DNA from: Acidobacteriota bacterium
GTDB lineage: Bacteria; Acidobacteriota; Vicinamibacteria; Vicinamibacterales; UBA8438
Assembly: GCA_026706755.1 (NCBI GenBank)
Contig: JAPOYG010000032.1
Location: 9,171 to 41,187 of the forward strand
Length of the DNA stretch: 32,017 nt
Direction: 5' to 3'
The translations under genes were made by a program, and so were the position numbers. Below, one piece after another: positions 18,731-31,386 of the stretch; positions within the stretch are counted from its first letter, which is position 1, and every line of letters starts with the position of its first letter. A model generated the notes under the pieces. The model was given only the letters and a program-made list of their open reading frames with translations, was not told the DNA's origin and made no database searches.

Positions 18731-19741
18731 CTACGCGGTGGCGAGCGCGTCCGCGGTTTCCACCCCGTAGGCGTGGAACCAGGGCTGGGCGCTGCTCAGG
18801 GCGCCGTTGACATTGCCGATGTTGCGGATTCCTTCCGTGCGGAGCCAGTCGCGGAAGGCACCGGCACCGTCCTTGGCATAGACGGGAATCCCGTCCTTCC
18901 AGGTGGCCCGGCCGCAGAGCACGCCGGAGAACGCCGCACGCGACTCGCCGGCCAGGGTGAGCGCCTCGGTGAACTCGGCGTTCCCCACTCCGGCCGACAG
19001 GTAGATGAACGGCTTCCTCGCGCCTGCCGATGCCTTCTGGAACAACGCGATCGCCTTCTCCCGGTCGTAGACGGCCGGGCCCGTGAAGCTGTCCGACCCC
19101 TCGACATACTGCATGTTCACGGGGACTTCCACCTTCATCACGTCGACGCCGTAGCGGTCCTTGGAGAACTCCGCCATGCTGCGGGCCACGACCTGCGGCT
19201 TGCGCTTCGCGTACTCCGGCCCCTTCTCGTCACCTCCGGTGTGGTCGTAGCCTACGAACTCCAGGAAGAACGGGATGTCGTTGGTGCGGCACTCGTCCCC
19301 GATGCGCTCGACGAACGCGTGCTTCTCGTCGTTGACTTCCTTGCTGTCGTACGGTGTGTAGTAGATCAGCACCTTCACGCAGTCCGCACCGGCATCCTTG
19401 AGCCGGCGCACGGACCAGTAGGGCAGGAGGTCGGGAAGGCGCCCCGGCCGCGTGTTGTCGTAGCCGCTCTCCTCGTAGGCGAGCAGGAGCCCGGCGTTGG
19501 GGCTGCGCAGCTTCGACGGCGCCAGCCCCCACTGGGGATCGAGCAGGATCGCGGAGGCGTGAGGCGTCAGGACCTCGGTGACGACGGCCTTGAACTCCTC
19601 CATCATCGCGTCGGTGGCGTCGCTTCCCTTCGCCTTGGCGAGGGCCTTCTTGAGCGAACCGCGCTGGTCCATCGCGGCCGCCGCGATGGCGCCGGTGTCC
19701 GTCGACACCGCCTTCATGCCGGCGAGCTTTCCTGGTGTCAT
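18731..19741 (-). CDS. lacD: Tagatose-1,6-bisphosphate aldolase LacD-type
   Basis: Class I (Schiff-base) aldolase of 336 residues. The sequence follows the LacD family along its whole length: 'AAMDQRGSLKKAL', 'AILLDPQWGL', 'GLLLAYEESGYD', 'CVKVLIYYTPYD' with Lys123, 'IPFFLEFVGYDH', catalytic Lys203 in 'VDVMKVEVPVNMQYVEG', 'PFIYLSAGVGNAEF' and 'GVLCGRATWKDG'. It would split tagatose 1,6-bisphosphate, and often other ketohexose bisphosphates, into two triose phosphates. No other lac or tagatose genes are nearby, so it may serve general sugar catabolism. ATG at 19741 is used; ATG at 19717, preceded by AGGAAAG, has the better ribosome-binding site and is a real alternative. A TATAAT lies upstream. 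Confidence 0.9.
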   Translation of the reverse strand: MTPGKLAGMKAVSTDTGAIAAAAMDQRGSLKKALAKAKGSDATDAMMEEFKAVVTEVLTPHASAILLDPQWGLAPSKLRSPNAGLLLAYEESGYDNTRPGRLPDLLPYWSVRRLKDAGADCVKVLIYYTPYDSKEVNDEKHAFVERIGDECRTNDIPFFLEFVGYDHTGGDEKGPEYAKRKPQVVARSMAEFSKDRYGVDVMKVEVPVNMQYVEGSDSFTGPAVYDREKAIALFQKASAGARKPFIYLSAGVGNAEFTEALTLAGESRAAFSGVLCGRATWKDGIPVYAKDGAGAFRDWLRTEGIRNIGNVNGALSSAQPWFHAYGVETADALATA

Positions 19742-24184: not shown

Positions 24185-25183
24185 ATGTCCAACATGCACG
24201 CTCGGCTTGCCGCAATCGCACGGGTTCTTCCCGCCCTCCTCGTGACGGCCCTGCTGGCCCCGGCGCTCGTCGAGGCGCAGCCGGCGGCCGAGGGCACGTC
24301 GATACCGCGCACCGCGGACGGGCGCCCGAACCTGCAGGGCGTCTGGGACTTCAGCTCGCTGACCCCGCTGCAGCGGCCCGCCGAGCTGGCGGAACGGGAG
24401 TTCCTGACCGACGAGGACATATCGGCGCTGGAGGCGCGGGCCGCGACGCGGGTCGACCGGGCGCCGCCGCCGGGCAATCCCGGCAGCTACAACCGCTTCT
24501 GGTTCGACGACGGGACGAGAGTCGCGGGGACGCGCCGCACGTCGCTCATCGTCGATCCGGCGGACGGGCGCCTGCCGGGCTACACGCCGGAGGGCCGGGC
24601 GCGGATGGCCGCCCGTGCGGAGGCGCGCGACCGCAACGCCGGCCCCGAGGACCGCGACGTGGACGAGCGGTGCATCCTCGGGTTCAATTCCGGACCGCCC
24701 ATGCTGCCGGGCGCGTACAACAATTTCGTGCAGGTGTTCCAGACGCCGGGGCACGTGGCCATCCTCAACGAGATGGTCAACGACTCCCGGCTGGTGCCGC
24801 TGGACGGCCGGCCGACGCTCTCGGCCGGCGTGCGGCAGTGGCGGGGGGACTCGCGCGGCCGCTGGGAAGGGGACACGCTGGTCGTCGAGACCGCCAACTT
24901 CCGGGACCTCGGAACCGCGCACCCCGCGCCCAACATGGAGCTCCTGGAGGCGCTGGGGCCGGAGCTCCACCTGGTCGAGCGCTTCAGCCTGCTCGACGCG
25001 GACACGCTGCTCTACCGGTTCACGATCGACGATCGGACCGCCTTCACCGAGCCGTGGAGCGTCGAGACCACGATGGCGAGGTCGGCGGACCCGCTGTTCG
25101 AGTACGCGTGCCACGAGGGCAACTACGGCCTCTACAACATCCTCGCCGGCGCGCGCGCCGAGAGTCGGGCCGCCGGGCCGTAG
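24185..25183 (+). CDS. Secreted protein of the 'DGRPNLQGVW' type, unknown function
   Basis: Protein of 332 residues (or 329 from the ATG at 24194, which has the better-spaced AAAGGGGG). Signal peptide at about 1-32 with core 'VLPALLVTALLAPALVEA'. The mature start 'IPRTADGRPNLQGVWDFSSLTPLQRP' is a hallmark of a large secreted family that I associate with Acidobacteriota and relatives; its function is not known to me. Further conserved-looking blocks are 'RTSLIVDPADGRLPGYTPEGRAR', 'DERCILGFNSGPPMLPGAYNNFVQVFQTPGHVAI', 'GDSRGRWEGDTLVVETANF' and 'HLVERFSLLDADTLLYRFTIDDRTAFTEPW', then 'YACHEGNYGL' at the end. Two cysteines (in RCILG and ACHEG) could pair. The HpaI-family gene follows after 119 bases on the same strand. 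Confidence 0.85.
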   Translation: MSNMHARLAAIARVLPALLVTALLAPALVEAQPAAEGTSIPRTADGRPNLQGVWDFSSLTPLQRPAELAEREFLTDEDISALEARAATRVDRAPPPGNPGSYNRFWFDDGTRVAGTRRTSLIVDPADGRLPGYTPEGRARMAARAEARDRNAGPEDRDVDERCILGFNSGPPMLPGAYNNFVQVFQTPGHVAILNEMVNDSRLVPLDGRPTLSAGVRQWRGDSRGRWEGDTLVVETANFRDLGTAHPAPNMELLEALGPELHLVERFSLLDADTLLYRFTIDDRTAFTEPWSVETTMARSADPLFEYACHEGNYGLYNILAGARAESRAAGP

Positions 25184-25302
25184 AGGCCCTCGCGTCCGCC
25201 CGGCCGGGTCGACCCGGGCGCAGGAGATGCGGACGATCCCCGCCCGGGTTCCTGCGCGCGTCCCGGATCGCGCCGCCACACCGACCTCGAAAGGAGCCGC
25301 CC

Positions 25303-26223
25303 GTGACACCGACCGCCCCTCGAACCGCACTGCTCGCCGCCGCGCTCGTCGTCGGAGCGCTCACCCTCGCGCCCGCCCGACCGGCCGCGCAGGCCGGCCG
25401 CCTGCTGGACGTGGTCGAGCTGCTGGCGAACGGCGAGGTGGTGTTCGGCTCGTTCGCCAACGTCGAGTCGGGCGCGAGCGGAGCCATCGAGATGTCGCGC
25501 TCGCAGGCCGACTACATCTTCTTCGACATGGAGCACGGCCCCCTCGACATGGTCGAGCTGCGCGACTACATGCAGTACCTGCTCGACCCGGCGCAGGTGC
25601 TGCGGCGCGGCCGGCCCGGCACCGACAAGGCGGTCTGGGTGCGCATTCCGGCCAACGGGCGCGAGATGAACGAGTGGATGATCAAGAACGCCCTCGACCA
25701 GGGCGCGCACGGGATCATCGCTCCGCACATCGAGACCCCGGAGCAGGCGCTTCACGTCGTGCAGTCGATGCGCTATCCGCAGCGGGTCCGAGCCCCCGAC
25801 ACCGAGCCGGTCGGGCTCCGCGGCTCCGGGCCCGGCAACGCCGTCCGCTACTGGGGCGTCTCCGGCGCCGACTACATCGCGAAGGCCGACGTCTGGCCGC
25901 TCGACCCCGACGGCGAGCTCCTCAACATGATCCAGATCGAGAACCGGATCGGGATCGCCAACGTCGACGCCATCGCCCGCGTGCCCGGCGTCAGCATGCT
26001 GATGGCGGCGCCCGGCGACCTCGGCATGGCGTACGGGGGCGATGCCGCGGCGACCGAGGAGGCTCTTCAGACCGTGCTGCGCGCCGCGACCGCGGCCGGG
26101 CTCCCCTGCGCCATCACGGCCGGGCCGGACGACGTAGAGCGGCGCATCCGCGAGGGCTTCCGCGTCCTGATCGGCGGGCCGGAGATGATCGCGGTCGGCC
26201 GCCGGGCCGCGGGGCGCGAGTAG
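25303..26223 (+). CDS. Secreted HpcH/HpaI-family aldolase
   Basis: Class II pyruvate-type aldolase fold, 306 residues. All active-site residues of HpaI are in place: general base His78 in 'FFDMEHGPLD', Arg114 in 'VWVRIPANG', metal ligands Glu213 in 'IQIENRIG' and Asp239 in 'AAPGDLGMAYG'. HpaI enzymes cleave 4-hydroxy-2-oxo acids into pyruvate and an aldehyde, normally in the cytoplasm. Here the core is preceded by a clear signal peptide (1-31: Arg7, core 'LLAAALVVGALTLA', cut near AAQA-G), so the product should be exported, which is unusual. GTG at 25303 is chosen for AAAGGAG 7 bases before it. Two insertions ('AQVLRRGRPGTDKA' and the 'DTEPVGLRGSGPGNAVRYWG' region) distinguish it from E. coli HpaI. 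Confidence 0.88.
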   Translation: MTPTAPRTALLAAALVVGALTLAPARPAAQAGRLLDVVELLANGEVVFGSFANVESGASGAIEMSRSQADYIFFDMEHGPLDMVELRDYMQYLLDPAQVLRRGRPGTDKAVWVRIPANGREMNEWMIKNALDQGAHGIIAPHIETPEQALHVVQSMRYPQRVRAPDTEPVGLRGSGPGNAVRYWGVSGADYIAKADVWPLDPDGELLNMIQIENRIGIANVDAIARVPGVSMLMAAPGDLGMAYGGDAAATEEALQTVLRAATAAGLPCAITAGPDDVERRIREGFRVLIGGPEMIAVGRRAAGRE

Positions 26224-26859: not shown

Positions 26860-27882
26860 ATGACGTCACGAAGGCCTGAGCGTGCGGCGCGGCGGGCAGT
26901 CGTTGGGCGGCGGCTCGTGCTGGCGGCGACTGCAGCATTGGTCGCCGCGCCGCTGGCGTGCGTCTCGCCGGACAGCGGCGGGCTGACCGTGCGGCTGTCG
27001 ATCGCCACCGGGGGCACGGGGGGCGTCTACTACCCCTACGGCGGCGGCATCGCGAAGATCATCAGCGATCACGTCGAGGGCGTCGAGGCGACCGCGGAGG
27101 TAACGGCCGGCACCGTCGACAACCTGAAGTTCATCGCCAGCCGATCCGCCGACCTCGCCTTCGGGCTGGCCGACTCCATCGACGACGCGGCGAACCAGCG
27201 GGGGGCATTCGCCGACTTCGGCGCGGTGCCGATGCGCGCCCTCGCCGTCCTCTACGACAACTACAACCACCTCGTCTCGGTGACCGCAACGGGCATCGAG
27301 ACCGTCGCGGACCTCGAGGGGCGCGTCGTCTCGACCGGCGCCCCGGGGAGCGGGACGGAGGTCAGCGCCTTCCGCATCCTCGAGGCGGCCGGCGTGGATC
27401 CCGACACCGGCATCCGCAAGCAGAGCCTGGGCGCCGCCCAGTCGGTCGATGCCATCAAGGACGACAAGATCGACGCCTTCTTCTTCAGCGGCGGGCTGCC
27501 GACCGGGGCCATCCTCGATCTGGCATCGACCCCCGGGCGCACGATCAAGGTCGTGCCCAACGGCGAGACCCTGGCGACGCTGCAGGAGCAGTACGGGTCG
27601 CTCGTCTACCACGACTCCCCCATCCCGCCGTCGACCTATCCCGGCATGGAGGAGACGGTTACCGTCGTCGCGGTGTCCAACGTCCTCGTCGTCCACGAGG
27701 CGATGGACGCCGATCTCGCGTACGAGCTGACGCGGGTCCTCTTCGAACAGCACGAGGAGCTGGCCGCGGTGCATCCGATGGCGGCGGTGCTGACGCTGGA
27801 GTCGGCGACCTCTGGGTCGCCCATCCCGTTCCACGACGGCGCCGCCCGCTACTACCGGGAGCGGGGCGCCTGGTCCGAGTGA
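26860..27882 (+). CDS. TAXI-family TRAP transporter solute-binding lipoprotein
   Basis: Periplasm-facing substrate-binding protein of 340 residues. An Arg-rich N-terminus and hydrophobic segment end in a lipobox (PLAC, Cys34), so it is probably a lipoprotein; most TAXI proteins are simply secreted. Family signs are 'LSIATGGTGGVYYPYGGGIAKII' after the lipobox, 'VTAGTVDNLKFIASRSADLAFGLADSIDDA', 'VVSTGAPGSGTEVSAFRILEAAG', 'AIKDDKIDAFFFSGGLPTGAI' and 'YPGMEETVTVVAVSNVLVVHE'. TAXI proteins bring carboxylates such as glutamate or 2-oxoglutarate to the permease. ATG at 26860 has AGGAGG 7 bases before it. The fused permease follows after 225 bases containing a strong hairpin, which may set the ratio of the two products. 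Confidence 0.94.
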   Translation: MTSRRPERAARRAVVGRRLVLAATAALVAAPLACVSPDSGGLTVRLSIATGGTGGVYYPYGGGIAKIISDHVEGVEATAEVTAGTVDNLKFIASRSADLAFGLADSIDDAANQRGAFADFGAVPMRALAVLYDNYNHLVSVTATGIETVADLEGRVVSTGAPGSGTEVSAFRILEAAGVDPDTGIRKQSLGAAQSVDAIKDDKIDAFFFSGGLPTGAILDLASTPGRTIKVVPNGETLATLQEQYGSLVYHDSPIPPSTYPGMEETVTVVAVSNVLVVHEAMDADLAYELTRVLFEQHEELAAVHPMAAVLTLESATSGSPIPFHDGAARYYRERGAWSE

Positions 27883-28107: not shown

Positions 28108-30093
28108 GTGGTAACCAACGGCGCTCCACTTCCCGGGCGGGCCGGCACTGGAGAGTCGCGGTCGACGCTGACGACCGCGGCGCCCAACTCGCCCGCCGAG
28201 ACGTTCGACGACCCGGAAGCGGACGTCCCGAGTCGCAAGCTGACGGGCCGGACCGCCACCCTGGTCACCGTACTGGCCGCGGGCCTGTCGTGCTACGCCC
28301 TCTACTGGGTGGTCGGCATCGTCCAGCCGCAGATATACCGCGTCAGCTTCCTTCTGATCACCCTGGTCCTGACGTTCCTCGTCTTCCCCGCCCTGCCGCG
28401 CTGGCGGGAGCGCGTGACCTGGACCGACTGGGCCCTGGCCGCGGTCTCGGTGGCCGCGCTGGCCTGGCCGATCATCGACTTCGAGCAGTTCGTCTACCGC
28501 GCCGCCACCCCGACCGGGCTGGATCTCGCGCTCGGCGCGGTGACGACCCTGCTCGTGTTGGAGGCGACGCGGCGCACGGTCGGTCCGATCCTGCCGGTCA
28601 CCGCAGTGGCGTTCCTCCTCTACGGCTACTACGGGCCGTTTCTCGAGCTCGTCGGCCTGGAGCTGTTCGCCCACCGGGGCTACGACGTGGCCCGGCTCGT
28701 CGGGACGCTCTACATGACGCTGGAGGGGATCTTCGGCGTACCGCTCAACGTCTGCGCGACGTTCATCATCCTCTTCACGATCTTCGGCTCCATCCTGGGC
28801 CACTCGGGCGCCGGGCAGTTCTTCATCACCTGGACGATGTCCGCGTTCGGCCGCTCCGAGAGCGGCGCCGGACCGGGCCGAACGGTGACGCTGTCGGGGT
28901 TCCTGCTCGGCACCGTGTCGGGGAGCGGCGTGGCGACGACCGTCACGCTCGGTGCGGTCGTCTGGCCGATGCTGCGGCGGGCCGGATTCTCGGCCGAGAT
29001 CGGCGGCGGCATCCTGTCCGCCAGCGGCATCGGGGCCATCATGGCGCCGCCGATGATGGGCGCGGCCGCGTTCCTCATCGCCGAGTTCCTGCAGATCACC
29101 TACCTGCAGGTGATCGTCATGGCGATCATCCCGGCGATCCTCTACTACCTGTCCATTGTCCTGATGATCGAGGCCGACGCGCGCCGGCTCGGCACGCGCG
29201 CGGTCGACGTCGACGTCCCGTCCGTCGGCGAGCTGACGCGCCGCGCCGGCTACCAGTTCCTGCCGCTCATTTCGATCATCGCGCTCCTGGTGACCGGGAT
29301 GACCCCGTTCCGCGCCGTGTTCCTGTCGACGCTGCTGGCCGTCGGCCTCAGCTTCCTGCGGAAGGAGAACGCGTTGCGGCCGCGCCGGCTGGTGGCCGCG
29401 CTCGAGGCAGGGGGGCGCGGCGTGCTGTCGGTCGCCGCGACGACGGCCACGGCCGGCGTCATCGTGGGCGTCGTGACCCTGACCGGCCTCGGGTTGAAGC
29501 TGTCGGGAATCATCGTCTCGCTCGCGGGCGGCAACATCTTCCTGACCGTCGTCTACGCCGCCGTTGCCGTCTGGATGCTCGGCCTGGCCGTGCCGGTCAC
29601 CGCGTCGTACATCATCGCCGCCGTCATGATCGCGCCGGCGCTGACGCTGGTGGGCGTCCCCGACTTCGCCGCCCACATGTTCATCTTCTACTACGCCGTG
29701 CTCTCCGAGGTCAGCCCGCCGACGGCGCTCTCCCCGTTCGCCGCCGCGGCCATCACCGGCGGCAACCCGTTCCAGACGATGATGCTCACCTGGAAGTACA
29801 CACTGCCGGCCTTCCTGGTGCCGTTCGCCTTCACCGTGAGCCCGGAAGGGGCCGGGGTGCTGCTGCAGGCGCCGGTCGGCGACGTCATCCGCACCGTCGG
29901 CACGGCGGCGGTCGGCGTCAGCGCCCTCGCCATGGGGCTCGGGGGCTGGCTGCGGCAGGCGACGACCCCGGTCGAGCGGGTCCTGGCCATCGCCGGGGGG
30001 CTGCTGCTCTTCTACGCGACCGCGGCCACGGATATCATGGGCGTACTGCTGTTCGGCGCGGCAATCGCGCTCCACCTGGTCCGCACACGCTGA
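28108..30093 (+). CDS. TRAP transporter permease, fused 4TM/12TM (TAXI type)
   Basis: Inner-membrane protein of 661 residues in which the small DctQ-like and large DctM-like TRAP subunits are one chain, as usual for TAXI systems. A soluble N-terminal stretch (about 1-48) is followed by small-subunit membrane segments ('TLVTVLAAGLSCYALYWVVG', 'SFLLITLVLTFLVFPAL' and others). The large subunit has 'GSILGHSGAGQFFITWTMSAFG', 'GFLLGTVSGSGVATTVTLGAVVWPML', 'GAIMAPPMMGAAAFLIAEFL' and 'SEVSPPTALSPFAAAAITGGNP'. It would use the sodium gradient to carry the solute delivered by the TAXI protein upstream. GTG at 28108 is the first start in frame; it lacks a ribosome-binding site but has TAGAAT 6 bases before it. 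The serine hydrolase gene begins 9 bases after the stop. Confidence 0.94.
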   Translation: MVTNGAPLPGRAGTGESRSTLTTAAPNSPAETFDDPEADVPSRKLTGRTATLVTVLAAGLSCYALYWVVGIVQPQIYRVSFLLITLVLTFLVFPALPRWRERVTWTDWALAAVSVAALAWPIIDFEQFVYRAATPTGLDLALGAVTTLLVLEATRRTVGPILPVTAVAFLLYGYYGPFLELVGLELFAHRGYDVARLVGTLYMTLEGIFGVPLNVCATFIILFTIFGSILGHSGAGQFFITWTMSAFGRSESGAGPGRTVTLSGFLLGTVSGSGVATTVTLGAVVWPMLRRAGFSAEIGGGILSASGIGAIMAPPMMGAAAFLIAEFLQITYLQVIVMAIIPAILYYLSIVLMIEADARRLGTRAVDVDVPSVGELTRRAGYQFLPLISIIALLVTGMTPFRAVFLSTLLAVGLSFLRKENALRPRRLVAALEAGGRGVLSVAATTATAGVIVGVVTLTGLGLKLSGIIVSLAGGNIFLTVVYAAVAVWMLGLAVPVTASYIIAAVMIAPALTLVGVPDFAAHMFIFYYAVLSEVSPPTALSPFAAAAITGGNPFQTMMLTWKYTLPAFLVPFAFTVSPEGAGVLLQAPVGDVIRTVGTAAVGVSALAMGLGGWLRQATTPVERVLAIAGGLLLFYATAATDIMGVLLFGAAIALHLVRTR

Positions 30094-30102
30094 GGTGATG
30101 TC

Positions 30103-31386
30103 ATGAGGTCACGCATTCGCCGGACGGCGCTCGCCGTCCTCGTCGCGCTCGTCGTCGCGCTGGTCCCGTCTTCGCTCCTCGCGCAGGGACTGACCCGCGC
30201 GGTGCCGGAATCCGTCGGCATGTCGTCCGACCGGCTCGAACGGCTGACGGAGGCGCTCGAGGGCTACGTCGACGATGGCCAGATGGCCGGAGCCGTCGCA
30301 ATCGTGGTCCGGCGCGGCCGCATCGCCTACCTGGAAGCGGTCGGCCAGCGCGACGTCGCCTCGGGCTCGGCGATGACGGACGACGCGATCTTCCGCATCG
30401 CGTCGCAGACGAAGGCGCTCGTCAGCACGGGCGTGATGCTCCTGCAGGAGGAGGGCCGGCTGCTCATCACCGATCCCGTCGGCGACTACCTGCCCGCCTT
30501 CGGGAACACGACCGTCGCCGAGCCGAACGAGGCGGGCGGCTACGACGTGGTCCCGCCGCGGCGTCCCATCACCATCCGCGACCTCCTTACGCACACCGCC
30601 GGCATCAGCTACGGCAGCGGCCCGGCTGCCGACAAGTGGCAGGAGGCCGAGATCACGGGCTGGTACTTCGCCGACCGCGACGAGACGGTGGGCGACGTCA
30701 TGGACCGGCTCGCCGCGCTGCCGCTCGACGCGCACCCGGGCGAGGCGTGGATCTACGGCTACAACACCGACATCCTCGGCGCGATGATCGAGAAGATCAG
30801 CGGGCAGACCCTCGGCGCGTTCCTCGGCGAGCGCCTGCTCGCCCCCCTCGGCATGGACGACACGCACTTCTTCCTGCCGACCGACAAGGTCCACCGACTG
30901 GCCACCGTCTACTCGTCGACCGACGACGGCGGCATCGAGCGCGCGCCCGATCCGGGGCACATGGTCGGTCAGGGCGCCTACGTGCACGGCCCGCGCAAGA
31001 GCTTCTCGGGCGGCGCCGGCCTGCTCTCGACCGCGACCGACTACGCGACGTTCCTGCAGACGATGCTGAACGGCGGCACGTTCGACGGCACGCGCGTCCT
31101 CTCGCGCAAGACCGTCGAGTCGATGACGGTCGACCATCTCGACGGCATCGCCTTCCGCTCCGGACAGGGCTTCGGCCTCGGCTTCTCCATCATGGAGAAC
31201 CCGGCCGCCCTCGGCCTGCCCGCGTCGAAGGGCGAGTACGGCTGGGGCGGCGCCTACCATTCGACCTACTGGGTCGACCCGGCCGAGGAGATGGTCGTCG
31301 TCTACCTGACGCAGCTCATCCCGGCCCGCGGCATCGACGACCACGGCAAGCTGCGCACCCTGATCCACCAGGCGATCATCGACTGA
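30103..31386 (+). CDS. Secreted serine hydrolase (beta-lactamase class C fold)
   Basis: Periplasmic protein of 427 residues of the esterase/D-aminopeptidase/penicillin-binding group. Signal peptide at 1-28 (core 'ALAVLVALVVALVPSSLLAQ'). The SxxK motif is SQTK with Ser101 and Lys104; the second motif region is 'WIYGYNTDILG' (Tyr218, an esterase-like YxxN form), and 'LLTHTAGISYG' and 'GYGWGGAYHSTYWVDP' (third-motif region) also fit. These features are more like EstB-type esterases than true beta-lactamases, so antibiotic resistance should not be assumed. It begins 9 bases after the permease stop, with GAGGTGA as ribosome-binding site, so it is probably in the TAXI-TRAP operon and may release the solute that is taken up. 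Confidence 0.9.
   Translation: MRSRIRRTALAVLVALVVALVPSSLLAQGLTRAVPESVGMSSDRLERLTEALEGYVDDGQMAGAVAIVVRRGRIAYLEAVGQRDVASGSAMTDDAIFRIASQTKALVSTGVMLLQEEGRLLITDPVGDYLPAFGNTTVAEPNEAGGYDVVPPRRPITIRDLLTHTAGISYGSGPAADKWQEAEITGWYFADRDETVGDVMDRLAALPLDAHPGEAWIYGYNTDILGAMIEKISGQTLGAFLGERLLAPLGMDDTHFFLPTDKVHRLATVYSSTDDGGIERAPDPGHMVGQGAYVHGPRKSFSGGAGLLSTATDYATFLQTMLNGGTFDGTRVLSRKTVESMTVDHLDGIAFRSGQGFGLGFSIMENPAALGLPASKGEYGWGGAYHSTYWVDPAEEMVVVYLTQLIPARGIDDHGKLRTLIHQAIID

Follow-up and report, generated by a model that had tools for sequence, protein, structure and literature searches.

The 4-hydroxy-2-oxoheptanedioate aldolase HpaI/HpcH (structures 7et8, 2v5j and 4b5s) is to our knowledge a cytoplasmic enzyme, as pyruvate aldolases of the superfamily in general are taken to be; no member is known to us from outside the cell interior. 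The gene studied here lies in a window of 32,017 nucleotides (the whole stretch of DNA that was analysed; Table 1), and its product resembles HpaI in predicted fold (Z 22.6–23.4) and in its set of His, Arg, Glu and Asp residues. HpcH/HpaI (PF03328) is the sole Pfam family in the protein, membership being clear from the profile score (E 9.3e-21; 74.6 bits against a gathering cut-off of 25), but the match to the HpaI equivalog TIGR02311 was only 58 bits against a cut-off of 368.8. The 2-dehydro-3-deoxygalactarate aldolase GarL of E. coli (1dxe) is similar in fold (Z 23.9; 31% identity over 234 residues); unlike the window gene it has neither a leader nor the subfamily insert described below, and the gene stays below the GarL equivalog cut-off (TIGR03239; 61.8 versus 406.75 bits). 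For RhmA (PRK10128) the score was 47.1 bits against 441, and the best NCBIfam matches, to PRK10558 and the GarL models, were also sub-threshold. As the matches to the GarL, HpaI and RhmA equivalogs all fall short, the gene is a member of the superfamily and none of the named enzymes.

Two further systems are relevant. Plasmid-borne proteins annotated as 'aldolase/citrate lyase family protein' (L103–L112) share about 36–42% identity with the mature chain over its full length and carry the same insert, but they have no leader, and several are found within clusters of aromatic-degradation genes. RraA-like proteins (PF03737) form another family of class II pyruvate aldolases, with a fold unrelated to that of HpaI; signal-bearing members occur in the same genomes, outside the window locus. 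The literature searched, in which few subscription journals were covered, yielded no description of an HpcH/HpaI enzyme that is exported, in line with the earlier note, to which a periplasmic aldolase of this kind was new. As far as these searches show, the class, fold and catalytic set are known and the export of a whole subfamily is undescribed.

Table 1. Features of the aldolase locus (positions in the window).
Feature	Position	Strand	Remarks
Exported 'GRPxLQGVW' family protein	24185..25183	+	upstream of the aldolase; link to it not established
Ribosome-binding site AAAGGAG	25290..25296	+	6 bases before GTG
Exported HpaI-type class II pyruvate aldolase (predicted)	25303..26223	+	306 aa, GTG start
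Sec-type leader, residues 1–31, ending ...PARPAAQA	25303..25395	+	signal rule and codon evolution
TAXI-type TRAP solute-binding protein	26860..27882	+	TIGR02122, 285.7 bits; start uncertain
Fused TRAP permease	28108..30093	+	TIGR02123, 488.7 bits
Exported PF00144 serine hydrolase	30103..31386	+	9 bases after the permease

The N-terminus was assessed with a rule-based signal score of our own (pass mark 8.5) and by codon evolution. The leader contains one Arg, a hydrophobic core of 15 residues and then small residues, with cleavage expected near residues 29–31; rule score and codon evolution together thus show the charged n-region, the hydrophobic core, the small residues before the cut and a translated leader, as in Sec export. 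The score was 12.08, and neither alternative reading frame of this DNA gave one. The rule was applied to 80 of the 91 family rows (omitted were L007, L014 and L038, the second domain of both L065 and L041, and six fusions to a beta-helix whose start could not be used) and was passed by 58 of the 61 rows classed as exported versus 0 of the 18 leaderless ones, the latter figure being partly by construction because the leaderless label was assigned from the N-termini. The rule was also passed by 90 of 281 genes of control stretches and by 601 of 3050 shuffled leaders. With about one fifth of shuffled leaders passing, the rule is weak on its own, and it is conservation and codon evolution that carry the argument.

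Codon evolution was followed by comparing the window gene with six orthologues (L008–L013), the leader being set against the 60 bases upstream. The start codon and Shine-Dalgarno sequence are conserved in all of them, with AAAGGAG or AAAGGAA kept before the start; within the window, AAAGGAG-N6-GTG occurs once, where 0.04 occurrences are expected by chance, so that the good ribosome-binding site described earlier is indeed present and maintained. All gaps in the leader are of 6 or 3 nucleotides, i.e. multiples of three. Mismatches at codon positions 1/2/3 of the leader were 3/2/8 for L009, 3/1/7 for L010 and 6/8/13 for L011, versus 4/4/6, 6/10/8 and 10/11/7, respectively, just upstream; the leader of L008 differs at a single position and is uninformative for codon bias. 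The leader is translated. The well-formed signal peptide that had been noticed at the N-terminus is therefore supported by score and by codon evolution, and from its sequence the protein is very probably exported. The distance from start to domain is 33–77 residues in exported rows versus 11–17 in leaderless ones. Exported rows also have fewer cysteines per protein (1.46 versus 2.94), a difference that is uncorrected for relatedness and was set aside as evidence.

The gene belongs to a large family. The genome itself holds nine PF03328 matches, of which seven are loci with a leader (C549 and C699 being near-copies) and the other two, C643 and C570, apparently represent one leaderless CitE-like gene split between contigs. 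Aldolase-family matches were found in 50 of 60 related genomes (E up to 0.001) and in 56 of 247 genomes of the phylum (1e-15). The named orthologues come from Acidobacteria and Vicinamibacterales MAGs, which, to judge from their isolate names, are probably sponge-associated. According to PMC8941161, UBA8438 is a family that holds a clade of sponge Vicinamibacterales.

A quick tree was built from 87 of the 91 rows (without L007, L014 and both L041 rows), with SH-aLRT support only and with a long-branch warning that includes L103; the window gene is represented in it by the 97% identical orthologue L010. One clade of 67 rows comprises 59 exported proteins, seven beta-helix fusions and one leaderless protein (L103), and about four changes of export state are needed over the whole tree. 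Relatives of the gene thus share the signal (66 of the 67 rows are exported or fused), and export, as predicted from these N-termini, is a lineage trait of a whole family. Relatives starting after residue 31, which according to the earlier note would speak against a translated leader, are not found among the orthologues and occur only among distant relatives, with 18 leaderless rows in 87. Those from Proteobacteria and Microbacterium plasmids (L103–L112) and from a few Acidobacteria (L121–L123, L127) are 36–42% identical and start 11–13 residues before the anchor, which is where the mature exported enzyme begins. A plasmid search gave 574 records with a match, and the 10 examined of the 40 listed were all leaderless. 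The leaderless protein within the exported clade, L103, is an actinobacterial copy on plasmid A of Microbacterium sp. No. 7 and sits on a long branch; it perhaps arose by gene transfer with loss of the leader.

The active site was analysed by alignment with the closest solved sequences, 4mf4 and E. coli GarL. H78, R114, E213 and D239 align with the residues responsible for catalysis and metal binding, and the earlier statement that all four are kept holds. PMC8560999 assigns metal binding in AbHpaI to Glu151/Asp177 and catalysis in HpaI to Arg70/His45, roles with which the set in the window gene agrees. A structure model built from nine aligned sequences (mean pLDDT 68, pTM 0.72) adopts the HpaI-type TIM-barrel fold, as judged by structure search (Foldseek was also run): Z was about 24 for 4mf4 and GarL and 22–24 for family members, with an rmsd of 2.3–2.8 over about 210 aligned residues. 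Confidence is low over 47 residues (about 158–204) around the subfamily insert WGxSxxDYxxxADxWPLxPxGE. This WPLxP insert is present in most exported and leaderless members and absent from the aligned E. coli superfamily members GarL and RhmA.

The catalytic set varies among the exported members. All four residues are kept in 18 of 18 leaderless rows and in 45 of 69 exported or fused rows. One subclade of 18 rows lacks the Arg and five further rows (L135–L138, L141) lack both His and Arg, all of these being exported or fused. The Arg-less subclade includes seven species (L128–L134; loci L143–L146 and L160, genus g99) in which the aldolase-like domain follows a right-handed beta-helix in one chain; in one of the seven the helix matches PF13229 at 60 bits, and a fusion of this kind has a signal-like N-terminus. 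The aldolase-like part of these fusions is matched by our own profile and not by PF03328 at 0.001. Lacking Arg or both His and Arg, the members of these subclades are unlikely to be ordinary aldolases and, to judge from their residues, probably do something else. At L065:5758-8461 an aldolase gene is followed by the gene for a 615-residue protein whose two HpaI domains share a single leader, beside a gene that we take to encode a class I fumarase.

These variants bear on the alternative that the window gene, too, encodes an exported non-aldolase, in which the HpaI fold would have been turned to binding or condensing small acids; the citrate synthase SbnG, a protein of this fold, may be compared. 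The model places SbnG at Z 24.1, tied with the aldolases, and the poorly modelled stretch around the insert counts on the same side, but the window gene and all 18 leaderless relatives keep every catalytic residue that was tested. A non-aldolase role, also raised by the earlier note, has thus gained weight for some exported paralogues and not for the window gene, for which it is improbable, though the best of the alternatives; its sequence makes aldolase chemistry likely.

In the window the genes for the LQGVW protein, the aldolase, the TAXI binding protein, the fused TRAP permease and the exported serine hydrolase follow one another on one strand, the hydrolase gene being the possible last gene of the operon. 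The open frame of the TAXI gene extends from 26692, and the gene caller chose a start at 26917. The order aldolase–TAXI–fused permease is co-directional in six of nine orthologous loci from two genera: it is the same in L008–L010, and L051 and L052 belong to the other genus (about 65% identity). The TRAP genes are absent from the L011–L013 loci (genus g5), whose aldolases are 88–90% identical. On this gene order, a functional coupling of the aldolase to the transporter is an even bet. At another place in the window (18731–19717) there is an aldolase of the DeoC/LacD family (PF01791) with no obvious leader.

The protein encoded upstream of the aldolase has no Pfam or NCBIfam match and belongs to a very large family (137 matches in its own genome); its predicted model (mean pLDDT 49.7) was too poor for use. 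In L010 (4838-5903) the LQGVW gene, just upstream of the aldolase, is shortened and adjoins a gene on the opposite strand. PQQ beta-propellers (PF01011) are similarly abundant, with 94 matches in the 5.8-Mb genome. Quinoproteins were neighbours in 19 of 47 aldolase loci versus 5 of 40 control stretches (p 0.004) and LQGVW proteins in 16 of 47 versus 7 of 40 (p 0.09). After reduction to one locus per 60%-identity group, with three of the 47 loci dropped for want of a called aldolase gene, the counts were 3 of 15 (p 0.67) and 4 of 15 (p 0.47); the quinoprotein signal is lost once near-copies are removed, and both associations are treated as unproven.

The neighbours of paralogues and relatives hint at a common function in the breakdown of oxo acids or aromatic compounds ('Tat' in what follows is our reading of the leader sequences). 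At L063:7216-11096 an exported aldolase is followed within 40 bases by a 2Fe-2S protein with a Tat leader, a molybdopterin oxidoreductase and a third gene that looks like an FAD subunit. An exported RraA-like protein (L069:4903-5766) lies near another exported paralogue, and a signal-bearing PF03737 protein is also found in L094. A further alternative is an exported aromatic ring-cleavage route, in which the aldolase would handle meta-cleavage products outside the cytoplasm. Leaderless relatives adjoin genes for LigB dioxygenases (L106, L108), VOC proteins (L105), a cyclase (L103), ThDP enzymes and Amidohydro_2 proteins (checked in L104, L105 and L107), and exported counterparts lie near exported aldolases: a cyclase and a VOC-LQGVW fusion in L011–L013, and an intradiol dioxygenase (PF00775) with a Tat-like leader beside a paralogue and a cupin at L048:5959-6747. 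However, no gene of the ring-cleavage type adjoins the window gene itself, the genomes are so rich in exported enzymes, as seen in the control genes that pass the signal rule, that such neighbours may be chance, and reactions that need O2 and NADH would be unexpected outside the cytoplasm; we consider this route doubtful, and somewhat more so than a non-aldolase role. Far less probable still is a mis-called start, i.e. a cytoplasmic enzyme translated from near residue 32–37 with the leader as an artefact: the leaderless relatives (about 36–42% identity) do start in this region, but no recognisable Shine-Dalgarno sequence precedes the in-frame GTG codons 37, 46 and 47 whereas codon 1 has AAAGGAG, independent leaders are found across the whole exported clade, and the codon-position bias and in-frame gaps of the leader led us to reject it.

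We therefore favour, with a probability of roughly 0.6, a metal-dependent pyruvate aldolase that splits 4-hydroxy-2-oxo acids outside the cytoplasm, a product being taken up by the TAXI-TRAP system. The analysis itself establishes a translated leader, the family, the fold, the conserved catalytic residues and the gene order; export, catalysis, the substrate and the part played by the transporter are deduced from these. The precursor would be exported via a cleavable Sec signal, cut near residue 30, to the periplasm or cell surface. There E213 and D239 would hold a divalent metal in the barrel, and H78 and R114 would split a 4-hydroxy-2-oxo acid by a retro-aldol reaction, giving pyruvate and an aldehyde. 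The genes of the locus itself give no clue to the substrate, which might be plant- or sponge-derived as the earlier note proposed. The TAXI-type transporter may then bind pyruvate or a different 2-oxo acid and carry it into the cell, and quinoproteins or molybdo-enzymes may oxidise aldehydes before these enter the cytoplasm. The known pyruvate-binding TRAP receptor is reportedly of the DctP type. TRAP receptors that take 2-oxo acids are described in PMC1839085 (pyruvate) and PMC11574862 (a TAXI protein for alpha-ketoglutarate), which makes import of the aldolase product plausible.

More speculatively, vicinamibacterial Acidobacteriota may have relocated one branch of their 2-oxo-acid and aromatic catabolism to the outside of the inner membrane, with TRAP-type carriers importing only the released small acids; the enzymes with export signals would then include HpaI- and RraA-type aldolases, quinoproteins, a molybdo-aldehyde oxidoreductase and enzymes of the ring-cleavage type. 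We regard this wider scheme as unlikely on present evidence. For genomes such as these, annotations as 'HpcH/HpaI' call for a check of the N-terminus before cytoplasmic pathways are assigned. The exported clade, with several copies per genome and a beta-helix fusion, offers a concrete family to assay and would place C–C cleavage of oxo acids outside the cytoplasm in sponge-associated and marine Acidobacteria.
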